This document shows, piece after piece, positions 24,133-63,172 of a stretch of 64,000 nt of DNA. The translations under genes and the position numbers were made by a program. The notes beneath the pieces were generated by a model. It did no database searches. It worked only from the letters and a program-made list of their open reading frames with translations, and was not told where the DNA came from. This DNA is from Corallococcus sp. AS-1-6. Lineage in GTDB: Bacteria > Myxococcota > Myxococcia > Myxococcales > Myxococcaceae. Position 1 is the stretch's first letter, and each line of letters opens with the position of its first letter. The stretch covers positions 1 through 64,000 of the forward strand of contig NZ_JAIQDE010000006.1 in NCBI RefSeq assembly GCF_020037015.1. The letters run 5' to 3'.

Positions 24133-24351
24133 CGCCAGGACCCTAGTCCTGCACCGGACATCCCGCGGCCCCGGATACGCCTCCAGCGAGGCAGTGTGTC
24201 CGCGATGACAGGTTTCACGGTGTGAGGTGGACGCACGACCCGGTGAATTGTCGCGATGCGTATCGCCCCGGAGTGGGTCTCAAGACACAATGCGCAAATG
24301 ACCCGGCCGGGGTCCGAGGCGAACCCGGGGCGGCCGGTGGGAGGCATACGG

Positions 24352-24915
24352 ATGGATGTCAAAGGCGTCGCATTCCTGGCACGGCAGACCATGGCGGTGC
24401 AGGCCTTCGGCGAACCGGCATGGAAGGCCTTCCTCGCGGAGCAGGCGAAGCGGGACCCCATCTTCGGGCAGCTCATCATGCCGGTCTCGCGCATCCCGGC
24501 GGACGCCTTCCTCCGCCTCAACGAGGCCTTCACCCAGCGCTTCTACGGCGGCGACACCAAGGCCTACTGGCAATACGGCATCAAGTCCGCCGAGTACGCG
24601 CTGGGCCAGGGCCAGCTCAAGACGATGTTCGGCAAGGACGACTTCCGCCGCTTCGCCCTGTTCACCCCCGGCATCTGGAAGGGCTACTTCACCGAAGGCG
24701 AGCTGACCGCGCAGTTGCAGGGCGACACCGTGGAGCTGCGCATCACCGGCGTGCCCCGGCCGCACATCTACTTCGAGCTCGCGGTGATGGGCTTCGCCTC
24801 CGGGGGCCTCGCGTACCTGAGCGGCCGCAAGGAGATCCACCACGAGGTGCTGAAGGGCTTCAGCAAGGGGGACATGGAGGTCCTCTACCGCTTCACCCTG
24901 CCCACCCCGGCTTGA
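24352..24915 (+). CDS. Hypothetical protein (myxobacterial type)
   Basis: 187 residues, no family assigned. It has no signal peptide or membrane segment. The sequence alternates helices and strands, with aromatic-rich stretches (TKAYWQYGIKSAEYALG, FTPGIWKGYF). The tail VLYRFTLPTPA resembles the end of sensory domains of the 4VR or heme-NO-binding kind, but I cannot support that call. The ATG at 24352 has GGAGG 8 nt upstream. It converges on the endonuclease/phosphatase-like gene with only 3 nt between the stops. Confidence 0.7.
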   Translation: MDVKGVAFLARQTMAVQAFGEPAWKAFLAEQAKRDPIFGQLIMPVSRIPADAFLRLNEAFTQRFYGGDTKAYWQYGIKSAEYALGQGQLKTMFGKDDFRRFALFTPGIWKGYFTEGELTAQLQGDTVELRITGVPRPHIYFELAVMGFASGGLAYLSGRKEIHHEVLKGFSKGDMEVLYRFTLPTPA

Positions 24916-59606: not shown

Positions 59607-59949
59607 CGAGCGCCTTACTTTTCGAGCAGGTCACTGGACCGCTCTCTCTACGGAGGCCGTCCCCACCCGGGAGCTGTTCATCCGCGTGGGTTTCGGCCTC
59701 CAATTTTTTCCGCGGGCAGGGTGACGGCTTCCGCCTCCCCTGCTTCCGCGAACCTCCCCCTGGCTCGATGCAGGATTCGCACCCACAGCCTCCGGCGCCG
59801 GAGACCCTCCCCAATTCGCAACCATCTCCGGGCCCGGCTCAATAAAACGCGCGCCGTGCGTGTGGGGACGACCCGGATTTCGGGGTCATTTCGTATCTCA
59901 TTTCCAGAAGGGGCCCGGCCGGGCGCCTCCATGACACGGAGCATTCCGC
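59607..59949. other. Divergent intergenic region (343 nt)
   Basis: The gap separates the leftward HEPN-like gene from the rightward sigma operon. A short inverted repeat GACCC-N8-GGGTC lies at 59870-59887, 60-80 nt upstream of the sigma start. An AT-rich run near 59697-59715 is also seen. No -35/-10 pair was recognised. No RNA gene was seen. Confidence 0.4.
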
Positions 59950-60648
59950 GTGCTGCCTGGAACCGAGCGGTCAGTCTTGGAGGCCTTCCGCCGGGGTGAC
60001 ACCGCCGTGCTCACCCAGGTCTACCGCGCCTATTCGCCAGAAGTGCTGCGCTACCTGTCCCGGCGCTTCGCCGTCCACTCGGAGACCGGCACGCGCTCCG
60101 TCGCGCTCACGCCCCTGGACCTGGACGCCGCGCACCAGGAGACCTTCGTGCGGGCCTTCCGCCCCCACATGCGCCAGGCCTATGACGGCGTGCGCCCCTA
60201 CCTGGGCTTCCTGCTCACCGTCGCCCGCTCCACCGCCATCGACCTCATGCGCGCCTCCGGCCGCGTGGCCCGGGAGGCCATCCCCCTGGATGACGCCCCG
60301 GAGCTCACCCACGCCCCCACCGAGGGCAAGAGCCCGGAGGAAGAGGCCCTGGGCGCCGAGGTCCGCTCCATCGTGCGCCGCTTCCTGGAGGCCCTGCCCG
60401 CCGAAGGGCGCGCCCTGGCCCAGCTTCGCTTCATGGACGGCCTGTCCCAGGAGTCCGCCGCCGACCAGCTCCAGCTCACCCGCGGCGAGGTGCGGGTGCG
60501 CGAACGCCGCCTGCGGTTGCAGTTCACCGAACACCTGAAGGACTCGGGCTGGCTGGACAGCGATGTCTTGCCGGGACGCCTGCAGTGGGGCGCCCTGCTC
60601 GCCACCCTGGCCCTGCTGTGCGCCATCCCATTCGGGAGCCTCCCATGA
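59950..60648 (+). CDS. ECF-like RNA polymerase sigma factor with C-terminal hydrophobic helix
   Basis: 232 residues. Region 2 is seen in LDLDAAHQETFVRAFRP and GFLLTVARSTAIDLMRASGR. Region 4 is LPAEGRALAQLRFMDGLSQE and the following helix-turn-helix with QLTRGEVRVRERR. After region 4 the protein ends with LQWGALLATLALLCAIPF, a hydrophobic helix not usual for sigma factors. The GTG at 59950 has GGAG about 9 nt upstream. It overlaps the anti-sigma gene by 4 nt (ATGA). It should direct transcription of its own operon (inference). Confidence 0.83.
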   Translation: MLPGTERSVLEAFRRGDTAVLTQVYRAYSPEVLRYLSRRFAVHSETGTRSVALTPLDLDAAHQETFVRAFRPHMRQAYDGVRPYLGFLLTVARSTAIDLMRASGRVAREAIPLDDAPELTHAPTEGKSPEEEALGAEVRSIVRRFLEALPAEGRALAQLRFMDGLSQESAADQLQLTRGEVRVRERRLRLQFTEHLKDSGWLDSDVLPGRLQWGALLATLALLCAIPFGSLP

Positions 60649-61445
60649 AGTGGTACGAGCGACATGTGGACGCGGGACTGACGCGCTGGTCCCTGGGGGA
60701 GCTGTCCACCCCCGAATCCTCGCGGCTCCTGCGCCACGCCCACGCCTGCGCCCGCTGCGGCGCCCGCTACGACAAGTGGGCCCGCGCCCACCGCGTCTTC
60801 GAATCCGGCCAGACGGACACCCCCACCGCCACGGAGCTGGAGACACTCACCGCCGCGGGGCTCGAAGCCGCCCTCACCGCCGCCTCGCCCCCGGACGCCG
60901 CCCCCGCCCGGTGGCCCACCCTCGCGGTGCTCGGCGCCACGCTCGCGGCCCTGTTCCTCGCGGTGGTGGTGACGCCCTCGTCCGTCGCGCCCACCGCCGC
61001 CACCGAACCCACCGAGCCCGAGTTCAGCGTCCGGGGCGCCAGCCATGACCCGGTCGCGCCCCCCGCGCCGGTGGCCCAGGCCGTCCTGCGCGTCTTCTGC
61101 GCGAAGCCCGGCCAGGCCCTGCGCGAGCTGCGCGCCGGGGCCGCGTGCACCCCGGGCGCCACGCTGGCCTTCGCGGCCGGTGCCCGCCCGCCCTACACCC
61201 ACGTCGCGGTGCGCGTGCGCGCCGGCGGCCGCGAGGAGGTCAACGGCCCCTTCCTGCTCAGCGGCAAGGCCGGCGAGGAGCGCCCCCTGGAGCTGACGGT
61301 CGCGCTGCCCGCGGGCGCCGATATGGCGGAGGTCACCGCGACGTTCTCCGCGCACCCGGACGCCACCCTGGCGGCCCTCCGTCAGGGCACGGCGGAGGGG
61401 GTGGTGGTGCTCAGGCAGGAGGTCCGGGTAAAGGAATCTCCATGA
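60645..61445 (+). CDS. Zinc-finger anti-sigma factor-like membrane protein
   Basis: 266 residues. The N-terminus has HxxxCxxC (His31, Cys35, Cys38), the ZAS motif of anti-sigma factors. A transmembrane helix (about 92-110, LAVLGATLAALFLAVVV) leads to a periplasmic domain with Ig-like strands and acidic patches. The family holds the sigma factor inactive until a signal arrives. Overlaps of 4 nt on both sides couple it to the sigma and caspase genes. The signal is unknown. Confidence 0.75.
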   Translation: MKWYERHVDAGLTRWSLGELSTPESSRLLRHAHACARCGARYDKWARAHRVFESGQTDTPTATELETLTAAGLEAALTAASPPDAAPARWPTLAVLGATLAALFLAVVVTPSSVAPTAATEPTEPEFSVRGASHDPVAPPAPVAQAVLRVFCAKPGQALRELRAGAACTPGATLAFAAGARPPYTHVAVRVRAGGREEVNGPFLLSGKAGEERPLELTVALPAGADMAEVTATFSAHPDATLAALRQGTAEGVVVLRQEVRVKESP

Positions 61446-63172
61446 AGAAGCTGGAAGTCCTCCTGGGGGTGGCGCTGCTGGCGGCGGCGCCGGAGGCGGT
61501 CGCGGACACCGTGCGGCGCGCGCTGGTCATTGCCCACAACGGCAGTGACGACCCCGCGCTCGCGCCGCTGCGCTACGCGGACGACGACGGCGTGCTGTGG
61601 GCGGAGACGCTCAAGCGGCTGGGCGTGGAGACCACGCTGCTCGTGGACCCGGACGAGCCCACGCGCAAGAGCGGCAGCCTGGCGCTGAAGTCCGCGCAGC
61701 CGCCCACGCGCGCCGCGGTGGAGCAGGCCGTGAAGCGGCTGCAGGCGGCGGCGCTCGCGGACCACGCGGCGGGACGCCAGACGGACGTGCTCATCGTCTA
61801 CGTGGGTCACGGCAACACGGACGACGCGGGCCGCGCCTACTTCACGCTCGCCGACGCGCGCCTGGACCGCGGCAGCCTCTATTCGGAGCTCGTGGATCCG
61901 CTGGGTGCGGACTACGTGCACGTCATCGCGGATGCGTGCCGCGCCTCCGGCGTGGTGGGCAGCCGAGGCGGGACGCCGGACGCGGCGGTGCTGGCGGAGC
62001 TGCGCGGCGTGCTCGCGCGCGAGCAACTGGCGTCGCGCCCCCACGTGGGCGCCCTCTTCGCGGAGAGCGAGGATGGCGAGACGCACGAGTGGTCCCGCAT
62101 CCGTGCGGGCGTCTTCAGCCACGTGGCCCGCTCCGGCCTGCTGGGCGGCGCGGACATCAACGGCGACGGCCAGGTGGAGTACAGCGAGCTGGCCGCGTTC
62201 GTGGCCGCGTCCCTGCACGGCGTGAAGGGCATGCCCGCGCGCCTGTCCGTCAACGCCTTCGCGCCCACGGCCGAGCCCCGCCGCCCGCTGGTGGGCCCCG
62301 CGCCCGAAGGGCCCCGGGTCACCTTCCCCGCCGGCTTCGAGTACGCGCGCCTCTCCGTGGAGGACGCGGACGGCCAGCGGCTGGTGGACGTGCGGCGCTC
62401 GAAGGAGCAGTGGACGCAGATCCTGCTGCCGCTGCGCGACGTGTACTGGGTGCGCGCGCCGGACGCGGAGGCGCGCATCACGCTGGCGCAGGTGTCCTCG
62501 GGCACGCCGAAGCTGCGCCCGCGCGAGCTCCAGGAAAGAGGTCCCGCGGAGGAGGCGCTCCGCCGGGGCCTGTTCGCCGTTCCGCTGGACCGGTCGTTCT
62601 ACGACGAATACGTCGCCGCCGTGGGGCTGGTGCCGGTGGACTTCGGCGACCCCTTCCAGCCGTCCGTCATCGGCGGGGCGCGCTCGCCGCTGGCCGTGGC
62701 GGCGCCGTCCGACTGGACGTCGCGGTTGGAGCTGGGCCTGGGCGCGGGGCGCTCGCCGCTGGGGCTGGCGAAGTTCGCCGCCGGGCCCAGCCTGTCGTGG
62801 CGCACGCCGTCCTCCGTGGACCTGCTCTACTACGGCGTGCGCGGGGCGTATGGCGTCACGCCGCTCGCGTCCCGGGACGGCATCCGCCTGCACCGCTTCA
62901 CGGTGGAGGGGCTGGTGGGGCTGGAGCGCCCCGCGAACACGCCGCTGTTCGCGGAGGTGGGCCTGGGCTGGGGGCTGCTGGGCCTCACGGCGCCGGGCTT
63001 CCGCCAGGCGGACCCGGCGATGCTCACCGGCCACGTGGCCGCGGGCGTGATGGGGCGGCTCGCGGGCATGCCGCTGCGGCTCTCGGCCCGGGTGGGCATG
63101 GATCGCGTCACCGCCAACGGCCACACCGGCATGGACAAGCAGTACGGCCTGGAGATTTCCCTGAGGCGCTAG
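61442..63172 (+). CDS. Secreted caspase-like (C14) peptidase with EF-hand and barrel-like tail
   Basis: 576 residues. A signal peptide (MKKLEVLLGVALLAAAPEA) leads to a caspase-like fold with His123 in VYVGHGN and Cys166 in IADACRAS, the usual dyad. An EF-hand is visible at about 238-249 (DINGDGQVEYSE). The last 160 residues contain Gly-rich amphipathic strands (ELGLGAGRSPLGLAKF) that resemble a beta-barrel. ATG 61442 overlaps the anti-sigma stop in ATGA. The substrate is unknown. Known caspase-like bacterial proteins include metacaspases and TPR-linked CHAT types; this architecture does not match either. Confidence 0.82.
   Translation: MKKLEVLLGVALLAAAPEAVADTVRRALVIAHNGSDDPALAPLRYADDDGVLWAETLKRLGVETTLLVDPDEPTRKSGSLALKSAQPPTRAAVEQAVKRLQAAALADHAAGRQTDVLIVYVGHGNTDDAGRAYFTLADARLDRGSLYSELVDPLGADYVHVIADACRASGVVGSRGGTPDAAVLAELRGVLAREQLASRPHVGALFAESEDGETHEWSRIRAGVFSHVARSGLLGGADINGDGQVEYSELAAFVAASLHGVKGMPARLSVNAFAPTAEPRRPLVGPAPEGPRVTFPAGFEYARLSVEDADGQRLVDVRRSKEQWTQILLPLRDVYWVRAPDAEARITLAQVSSGTPKLRPRELQERGPAEEALRRGLFAVPLDRSFYDEYVAAVGLVPVDFGDPFQPSVIGGARSPLAVAAPSDWTSRLELGLGAGRSPLGLAKFAAGPSLSWRTPSSVDLLYYGVRGAYGVTPLASRDGIRLHRFTVEGLVGLERPANTPLFAEVGLGWGLLGLTAPGFRQADPAMLTGHVAAGVMGRLAGMPLRLSARVGMDRVTANGHTGMDKQYGLEISLRR

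Follow-up and report, generated by a model that had tools for sequence, protein, structure and literature searches.

We analysed a stretch of 64,000 nucleotides from Corallococcus sp. AS-1-6 (contig NZ_JAIQDE010000006.1, positions 1 to 64,000), here called the window, which belongs to a genome of 9.5 Mb. Near its end, on the forward strand, lies an operon of three genes encoding a sigma factor (59950-60648), an anti-sigma factor (60645-61445) and an exported caspase-type peptidase (61442-63172), joined by two 4-nt ATGA overlaps. Our findings point to a proteolytic link between the last two proteins. The caspase may act as a site-1 protease which cuts the membrane-anchored anti-sigma factor between the two residues of a Lys-Gly or Arg-Gly dipeptide ([KR]G) and in this way releases the sigma factor, a proposal to which we give an even chance of being correct. 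New here are the fusion of a caspase to a beta-barrel, the DUF4384-like periplasmic domain on the anti-sigma factor, and the [KR]G dipeptide in the juxtamembrane linker of the latter.

The operon is real and not a product of chance neighbourhood, since the gene order and the 4-nt overlaps have been kept across orthologous loci. One scan gave 24 such loci with at least 45% identity, the closest in Corallococcus, spread over Corallococcus, Myxococcus, Pyxidicoccus, Citreicoccus, Hyalangium, Archangium and a groundwater metagenome-assembled genome (MAG). The anti-sigma gene stands directly upstream of the caspase gene in 24/24 of them (five being cut by a contig end), and the sigma gene comes next upstream in all 19 that reach far enough. 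The overlap between the sigma and anti-sigma genes is found in 18/19 loci and that between the anti-sigma and caspase genes in 23/24, the exception being the MAG. A gene beginning at about 63212, downstream of the operon, was found in 6 of the 24 loci and is not counted as part of it. The first-pass annotation of this DNA, made from the sequence alone, had described the three overlapping genes, had coupled the exported caspase to the sigma/anti-sigma pair, and had asked how gene order compares across myxobacterial genomes; the conserved co-occurrence bears it out. One record in our data, titled Comamonas sp. KCTC 72670 (L025), carries a copy of the myxobacterial-type operon with 62% identity and the same overlaps, and this assembly is perhaps mislabelled or contaminated.

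The second gene of the operon encodes a protein of 266 amino acids, identified as a zinc anti-sigma factor from its conserved zinc ligands and its AlphaFold model, with a single transmembrane (TM) segment at residues about 92-110 (60918-60974; found by hydropathy, with limits set by sequence reading). The zinc ligands H31-x3-C35-x2-C38, which the first-pass annotation had already recognised as an HxxxCxxC motif in a membrane protein, are invariant together with H7 in 20/20 orthologues. The motif lies within an N-terminal domain modelled as four helices (2-16, 22-34, 36-54 and 62-80), as in class I zinc anti-sigma (ZAS) proteins. The match to the Pfam family zf-HC2 (PF13490) reaches 13.4 bits, below the cut-off of 22.2, and 12 of the 20 orthologues match this profile at E up to 1. 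Judging from the gene pairing, the protein would bind and inhibit its cognate sigma factor. Past the TM segment, the model shows a linker (residues 103-143) with a predicted local distance difference test score (pLDDT) below 50, read as disordered, and a periplasmic beta-sandwich (residues 146-262; 61080-61430). A fold search with the model returned no match at E <0.001 (best 7e-3, to mixed beta-sandwich folds), and this fold is therefore left unnamed. The window protein gave no match to DUF4384 (PF14326) at E up to 1, and two paralogues from the same genome reach 21.6 and 14.2 bits where the cut-off is 27. Since none of these scores exceeds the cut-off, the domain is called DUF4384-like only. 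Of 77 genomes from the phylum, 24 have a DUF4384 match above the cut-off. Two cysteines of the periplasmic domain, at residues 152 and 168, are invariant in 20/20 orthologues; they possibly form a disulphide and could provide a redox input.

The third gene encodes a protein of 576 amino acids in which a peptidase C14 domain precedes a beta-barrel. It matches PF00656 with 31.8 bits (cut-off 21.4) and carries a signal peptide recognised by reading, in agreement with the secreted caspase-like peptidase of the first-pass annotation. The p20 domain (residues 22-167; 61505-61942) is metacaspase-like and superimposes on that of yeast Yca1 (4f6p) with a VIA-align Z of 12.8 and 3.1 A over 124 residues. 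Within this fold it holds the His/Cys dyad of C14 peptidases, H123 (61808-61810) and C166 (61937-61939). Loss of the dyad in alignments, which the first-pass annotation had named as a ground for refutation, was looked for, and the dyad proved invariant in 21/21 orthologues and in 44/44 aligned caspases from sigma/anti-sigma/caspase trios (see below). Metacaspases cleave after Arg or Lys (PMC4357240, PMC6426788), and orthocaspases likewise (PMC8283722). Asp95, on helix 1, and Asp211 belong to the S1 pocket of TbMCA2 (PMC4357240); by our reading of the sequence, Asp49 and Asp164 of the window protein appear to occupy the places of these two residues. Asp49 is kept in 44/44 trio caspases and Asp164 in 35/44, and on this equivalence, itself a matter of reading, the pair would be consistent with a basic S1 pocket like that of TbMCA2.

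Residues D238-E249 (62153-62188) resemble an EF-hand calcium loop. The residues at metal positions D238, N240, D242, G243 and E249 are invariant in 21/21 orthologues, and D238 and E249 are retained in 44/44 trio caspases. The Pfam EF-hand score of the loop is 13.5, below the cut-off of 25.9, and the loop region is poorly modelled; a sequence search of solved structures returned calcium-binding proteins through this loop and no caspase. Given the conservation of the loop and the general activation of metacaspases by Ca2+ (PMC4357240), the caspase is possibly calcium-sensitive. The tail, which the first-pass annotation had called barrel-like, was modelled with AlphaFold as an 8-strand outer-membrane beta-barrel (residues 422-576; 62705-63169). 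Foldseek matches it to OmpA, NspA and OmpX at E 4e-6 to 7e-6, VIA-align gives Z of 17.5 for NspA, 17.1 for OprF and 16.9 for OmpA, and the pLDDT of the AF2 model lies between 71 and 91 per 10-residue block over residues 431-576. At the level of the fold, the model of the window protein is a barrel of the OmpA/OmpX/NspA type, and it is predicted to anchor the caspase in the outer membrane. A third caspase-barrel gene copy in another genome (G049 C1:7114596-7116163) is in pieces, two of them with in-frame stops.

The arrangement is recurrent. The source genome has six PF00656 matches and a seventh homologue, L037, found with a profile of the window caspase family; among these seven there are five trios of sigma factor, anti-sigma factor and exported caspase and one divergent set, so that 6/7 adjoin a sigma/anti-sigma pair of their own. 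In the divergent set, that of L037, the sigma and zinc anti-sigma genes lie on one strand and the caspase gene on the other, a layout shared by L039 and L040. By sequence reading, the caspases of these three loci end before the barrel and keep the caspase domain; L039 and L040 also have a gene for an exported-looking product that overlaps the end of the caspase gene or comes after it. The homologue L031, soluble by reading, has no sigma match within its 7-kb stretch. The genome holds 59 matches to sigma factors of the extracytoplasmic function (ECF) type, six of which are caspase-linked. In six selected genomes of the family, an ECF sigma gene lies upstream on the same strand in 29/40 caspase loci, and 28/40 qualify as full trios under a fixed rule (the 40 come from 43 PF00656 matches, three of which were not fetched). 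Both in these genomes and in the source genome, C14 homologues occur more often in a trio than in any other setting. Phylum-wide, 11 trios were found among 19 loci hand-picked from the profile matches listed (the A1 set); the other eight comprise two with an adjacent same-strand sigma gene, two with a sigma gene 1.8-2.3 kb off, two with a divergent sigma gene and two with none in the stretch. At L072 and L081, a caspase gene follows that of an anti-sigma-like TM protein with Lys-Gly and no sigma match was found upstream, an arrangement we describe as an orphan pair.

This frequency contradicts the first-pass annotation in one respect, for it had considered a coupled exported caspase rare. Operons of this kind were reported in 2012: a sigma-70 gene shares an operon with four of the five metacaspases of M. 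xanthus DK1622, and sigma-70/metacaspase operons were also described in Anaeromyxobacter, Haliangium, Sorangium, Ralstonia and Fibrobacter (PMC3501461). The link between sigma-70 and metacaspase in that account (Asplund-Samuelsson 2012) is the same as ours; the barrel fusion, the cleavage site and the mechanism do not figure in the parts of it examined, and the term anti-sigma has 0 occurrences in the paper (PMC3501461).

The candidate cleavage site was recognised from conservation. R130-G131 of the window anti-sigma factor (61032-61037) is invariant in 20/20 orthologues, within a periplasmic linker that is otherwise variable and modelled with low confidence, and its relatives carry the same type of dipeptide. 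All five trio anti-sigma factors of the source genome have Lys-Gly or Arg-Gly after the TM segment; the score for this genome becomes 5/6 when L037 is included, since its anti-sigma factor has Arg-Ser. Among the trio anti-sigma factors of the family genomes, which represent five other genera, [KR]G is found at most 40 residues past the TM segment in 28/28, compared with a mean of 15.9 and a maximum of 23 in 2000 shuffles that preserve composition. A looser phylum set gave 9/11 (shuffles mean 4.6, P 0.007). Over all sets, [KR]G is the commonest dipeptide class after the TM segment (42/44), the next being GA with 27. The choice between Arg and Lys at P1 was tried as additional evidence and set aside: with A1-type caspases it is R in 7 cases, K in 3 and neither in 2, with the other subfamilies K in 26 and R in 6, and this split follows ancestry.

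The same dipeptide was then tallied in TM proteins with a DUF4384 match. This survey took in 70 of 82 listed rows, of which 59 with a TM segment were tallied and 11 lacking one were left out, and a caspase was scored as present when the stretch retrieved, about 3-5 kb long, held a profile match at any position; the caspases of L156 and L195 were counted as adjacent, their open frame running into the preceding gene. With a sigma factor and a caspase in the same stretch, [KR]G was present in 47/47 (shuffles mean 24.7, max 35), and it was present in the single protein that had a caspase and no sigma match. With neither sigma factor nor caspase it was found in 0/4, and with a sigma factor and no caspase seen in the stretch in 4/7. 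L138, one of the loci with no caspase in the first stretch, has the motif, and a caspase gene lies 2.3 kb off on the other strand; L157 and L169 are near contig ends. Three of the seven, DUF4384 anti-sigma factors all of one genus, had no caspase in 12-kb stretches, and [KR]G was found in 0/3, while the caspase-bearing sister genus has Ala-Lys-Gly-Gly (AKGG). As these three form one lineage, they represent one evolutionary event and not three. A further control used zinc-finger TM proteins of the source genome that are not beside a caspase, where [KR]G occurs in 1/11. It started from 30 loci, from which three caspase-linked ones were removed (L114, L119 and L123, of which L119, the same locus as L037, is itself devoid of [KR]G); of the rest, some yielded no row and some were excluded because they lacked a TM segment, had a kinase-like frame (including L105) or had too short a tail (L111), and the 11 remaining were counted by eye.

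Several observations weigh against cleavage at [KR]G by the caspase. The Arg-Ser of L037 has counterparts in L054 (Arg-Asp) and L055 (no motif), in both of which a caspase with an intact dyad lies beside the anti-sigma factor. L198, counted among the 47, has Met-Gly at the place of the motif and scores by a later RG. Conversely, the non-caspase protein L101 has RG, and L176, the remaining one of the seven sigma-linked proteins with no caspase seen, is a true exception: it has RIKG with no caspase within 2.9 kb, the nearest match lying about 8.7 kb off. The genus whose loci have no caspase nearby holds one or two C14 genes elsewhere in its genomes. On the side of the enzyme, Asp164 is replaced by Ala in 9/44 trio caspases, residues 167-287 and 362-425 are modelled at pLDDT <50, and the mean pLDDT is 47 over the ten residues surrounding Cys166. 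The wider pattern has exceptions too, as 12/40 family caspase loci are not trios, the anti-sigma factor of the trio paralogue L035 in the source genome lacks the zinc ligands, and the pattern [HC]-x3-C-x2-C occurs in only 17/28 family trio anti-sigma factors, so that the other 11 are called anti-sigma by place, TM segment and linker alone. The main alternative for the motif itself is that [KR]G could be the structural start of the DUF4384-like domain. Three of the four weak DUF4384 matches in the source genome sit in caspase-linked anti-sigma factors, and motif, domain and caspase consequently travel together. Evidence against this structural alternative comes from the genus whose loci have no caspase nearby, but it is a single case.

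With these reservations, we propose that the three proteins form a trans-envelope signalling unit. At rest, as expected from its class, the zinc four-helix domain of the anti-sigma factor would keep the ECF sigma factor at the inner membrane. The caspase would be exported, with its barrel in the outer membrane and its catalytic domain toward the periplasm, the orientation expected of an N-terminal domain on an even-stranded barrel; such a location would place it where envelope damage or ligands could be sensed. When a signal arrives, perhaps with calcium at the EF-hand-like loop, the caspase would dock on the DUF4384-like domain. That DUF4384 and C14 domains work together is suggested by their fusion in cyanobacteria, where DUF4384 is an accessory domain of C14 in 23 orthocaspases (PMC8283722), and in one frame of G049 (C1:4248618-4250612; L077/L159), in which both match a single open frame of 800 amino acids. 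In the cyanobacterial orthocaspases the two domains are in one protein (PMC8283722, PMC7475262), whereas here they are split between caspase and anti-sigma factor. The linker would be cut after the basic residue of [KR]G, which in the window protein is R130. After this site-1 cut, a general site-2 protease and the Clp machinery would destroy the anti-sigma stub, and the freed sigma factor may then drive its own operon, and perhaps a small regulon, from an ACRACC-N18-CGTATC promoter. The first-pass interpretation, a pathway in which periplasmic proteolysis is tied to transcription, is partly supported by our results. To it they add that the caspase is predicted to be anchored in the outer membrane, that the anti-sigma factor has a candidate site for cleavage, and that the signal probably runs from the caspase to the anti-sigma factor. 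The generalisation that most exported myxobacterial caspases are outer-membrane site-1 proteases, each tied through a DUF4384-like anti-sigma factor with [KR]G to an ECF sigma factor of its own, is more tentative, and we place it a little short of an even chance. If true, it would mean multi-copy caspase-gated trans-envelope pathways, up to six in the source genome, and would give the exported C14 caspases of bacteria a class of natural substrates.

The sigma factor and the region upstream of it bear on the last step of this proposal. The sigma gene has a GTG start, retained in 18/19 other loci, and encodes 232 amino acids. As the first-pass annotation had supposed, the product is of the ECF type: it scores 60.8 bits against NCBIfam TIGR02937 (cut-off 42.9), matches PF04545 and PF07638 above their cut-offs and PF04542 (region 2) below (19.2 against 24), in line with ECF proteins, which have sigma-70 regions 2 and 4 only and about 180-230 residues. 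Upstream of it, an alignment of the window and 18 loci (the MAG being left out) revealed a promoter-like block at constant spacing in all 19 rows, ACGACC-N18-CGTATC in the window (59868-59897), with an invariant CC in the -35 core and an invariant CGTAT in the -10 core. The exact pattern has 6 sites in the 9.5-Mb genome and 1-8 sites in each of five relatives, with 0 for the reversed control pattern in the source genome and 0 or 1 in each relative; one of the sites is upstream of the operon in three of the five relatives (G047, G031 and G042). The resemblance of this block to an ECF promoter suggests autoregulation of the operon, and shared sites are too few for the regulon to be defined from the pattern. 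A second exact match lies in the window at 24235-24264 and is followed, after 89 nt, by a possible start at 24353; G047 carries this site with an identical spacer, and the gene is a candidate regulon member.

Sigma operons often include their own effectors, and the caspase could be one of them, engaged in periplasmic protein turnover, autolysis or predation. Envelope stress would then reach the sigma/anti-sigma pair by way of a different protease, and [KR]G would be structural or the site of a protease other than the caspase. The promoter-like element precedes all three genes, so that expression of the caspase would follow the sigma factor. Autolysis has been suggested for Myxococcus metacaspases (PMC3501461), and 11/40 family caspase loci have no sigma gene upstream. 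An effector role, on the other hand, does not predict that [KR]G should occur beside caspases and be absent in the genus without a nearby one, nor that the divergent L037, L039 and L040 should keep the partners together without a shared operon. We consider this explanation unlikely on balance, and the most serious competitor to cleavage of the anti-sigma factor by the caspase.

A relay of the FecIRA kind, in which the caspase-barrel protein is a receptor contacting the periplasmic domain of the anti-sigma factor and the dyad serves another purpose, appears less probable still. In FecI/FecR/FecA the genes follow the order sigma factor, anti-sigma factor, outer-membrane barrel protein, and a signal at the outer membrane reaches the anti-sigma factor; the order in the window is the same, and its barrel is predicted with good confidence. 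FecA, however, is a 22-strand TonB receptor with an N-terminal signalling domain and no caspase, and the periplasmic domain of FecR differs. The window protein combines an 8-strand barrel with a caspase domain, shows no match to TonB receptors in Pfam at E up to 1, and does not belong to the FecIRA systems. A pure receptor would not need the dyad that all trio caspases preserve, the divergent caspases have kept the caspase domain without a barrel, and [KR]G would be left unexplained. Finally, accidental neighbourhood of two unrelated gene sets, in favour of which only the twelve non-trio loci can be cited, is practically excluded by the recurrence of the link in paralogues and across the phylum against a background of 59 ECF matches in 9.5 Mb, and by the conserved order, the overlaps and the divergent variants.

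Returning to proteolytic release of the sigma factor by the caspase, this kind of mechanism has a precedent. In the type III-E CRISPR system Craspase (Csx29/Csx30/CASP-sigma), an ECF-like sigma factor is relieved of inhibition once its inhibitor has been cut by a caspase-fold protease of the CHAT type (PMC10028731). Craspase is cytoplasmic, RNA-triggered and dependent on Cas7-11, and Csx30 is not a zinc membrane anti-sigma factor (PMC10028731), whereas the window caspase is exported and predicted to reside in the outer membrane. It is also not a Craspase member, as Pfam assigns it to C14 and not to CHAT, and no CRISPR gene was recognised on reading the frames of 57000-70000, a dedicated CRISPR search not having been made. 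Proteolytic control by a CHAT neighbour has been proposed for ECF54 sigma factors, which have CHAT, subtilase and carboxypeptidase neighbours (PMC8999054), which resembles the control of an ECF sigma factor by a caspase-type protein that we propose here. The classical membrane pathway provides a further likeness. Its site-1 protease, DegS, belongs to the serine proteases and is located at the inner membrane, unlike an outer-membrane caspase. The substrate RseA is a membrane anti-sigma factor cut by DegS and then by RseP and ClpXP (PMC10028731), a stepwise proteolysis that releases sigma-E. Our literature search, to whose coverage the 2021 ECF re-classification did not belong, surfaced the 2012 operon report, showed no caspase cutting a membrane anti-sigma factor in titles or abstracts, and turned up no exported outer-membrane caspase version with a zinc anti-sigma factor.

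Bacterial caspase homologues are usually discussed as cell-death enzymes, and natural substrates are known for few of them, one reported case being MaOC1, which cuts an antitoxin (PMC7935541). For dozens of bacterial caspases, the genome evidence presented here points to a partner and a substrate and, within the latter, to one candidate bond, and predicts a role in signalling rather than killing. The operon would then represent an envelope counterpart to Craspase, in which a caspase-fold protease from a different branch and in a different compartment releases an ECF sigma factor.

Two minor observations may be added. The sigma factor ends in a hydrophobic tail (residues 214-228; 60589-60633) whose 15-residue Kyte-Doolittle maximum exceeds 2 in 18/20 orthologues, with values of 1.4 in L029 and 0.55 in L027; it was not seen by eye at the C-termini of four trio paralogues in the source genome. 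The tail could be a membrane tail anchor, which would make this a tail-anchored sigma factor, an idea kept as a side note since L027, from Archangium, has no hydrophobic tail. Lastly, four zinc-finger frames of the source genome (L104, L108, L118 and L120) resemble Ser/Thr kinases, with kinase-like stretches, recognised by reading, after the zinc finger.

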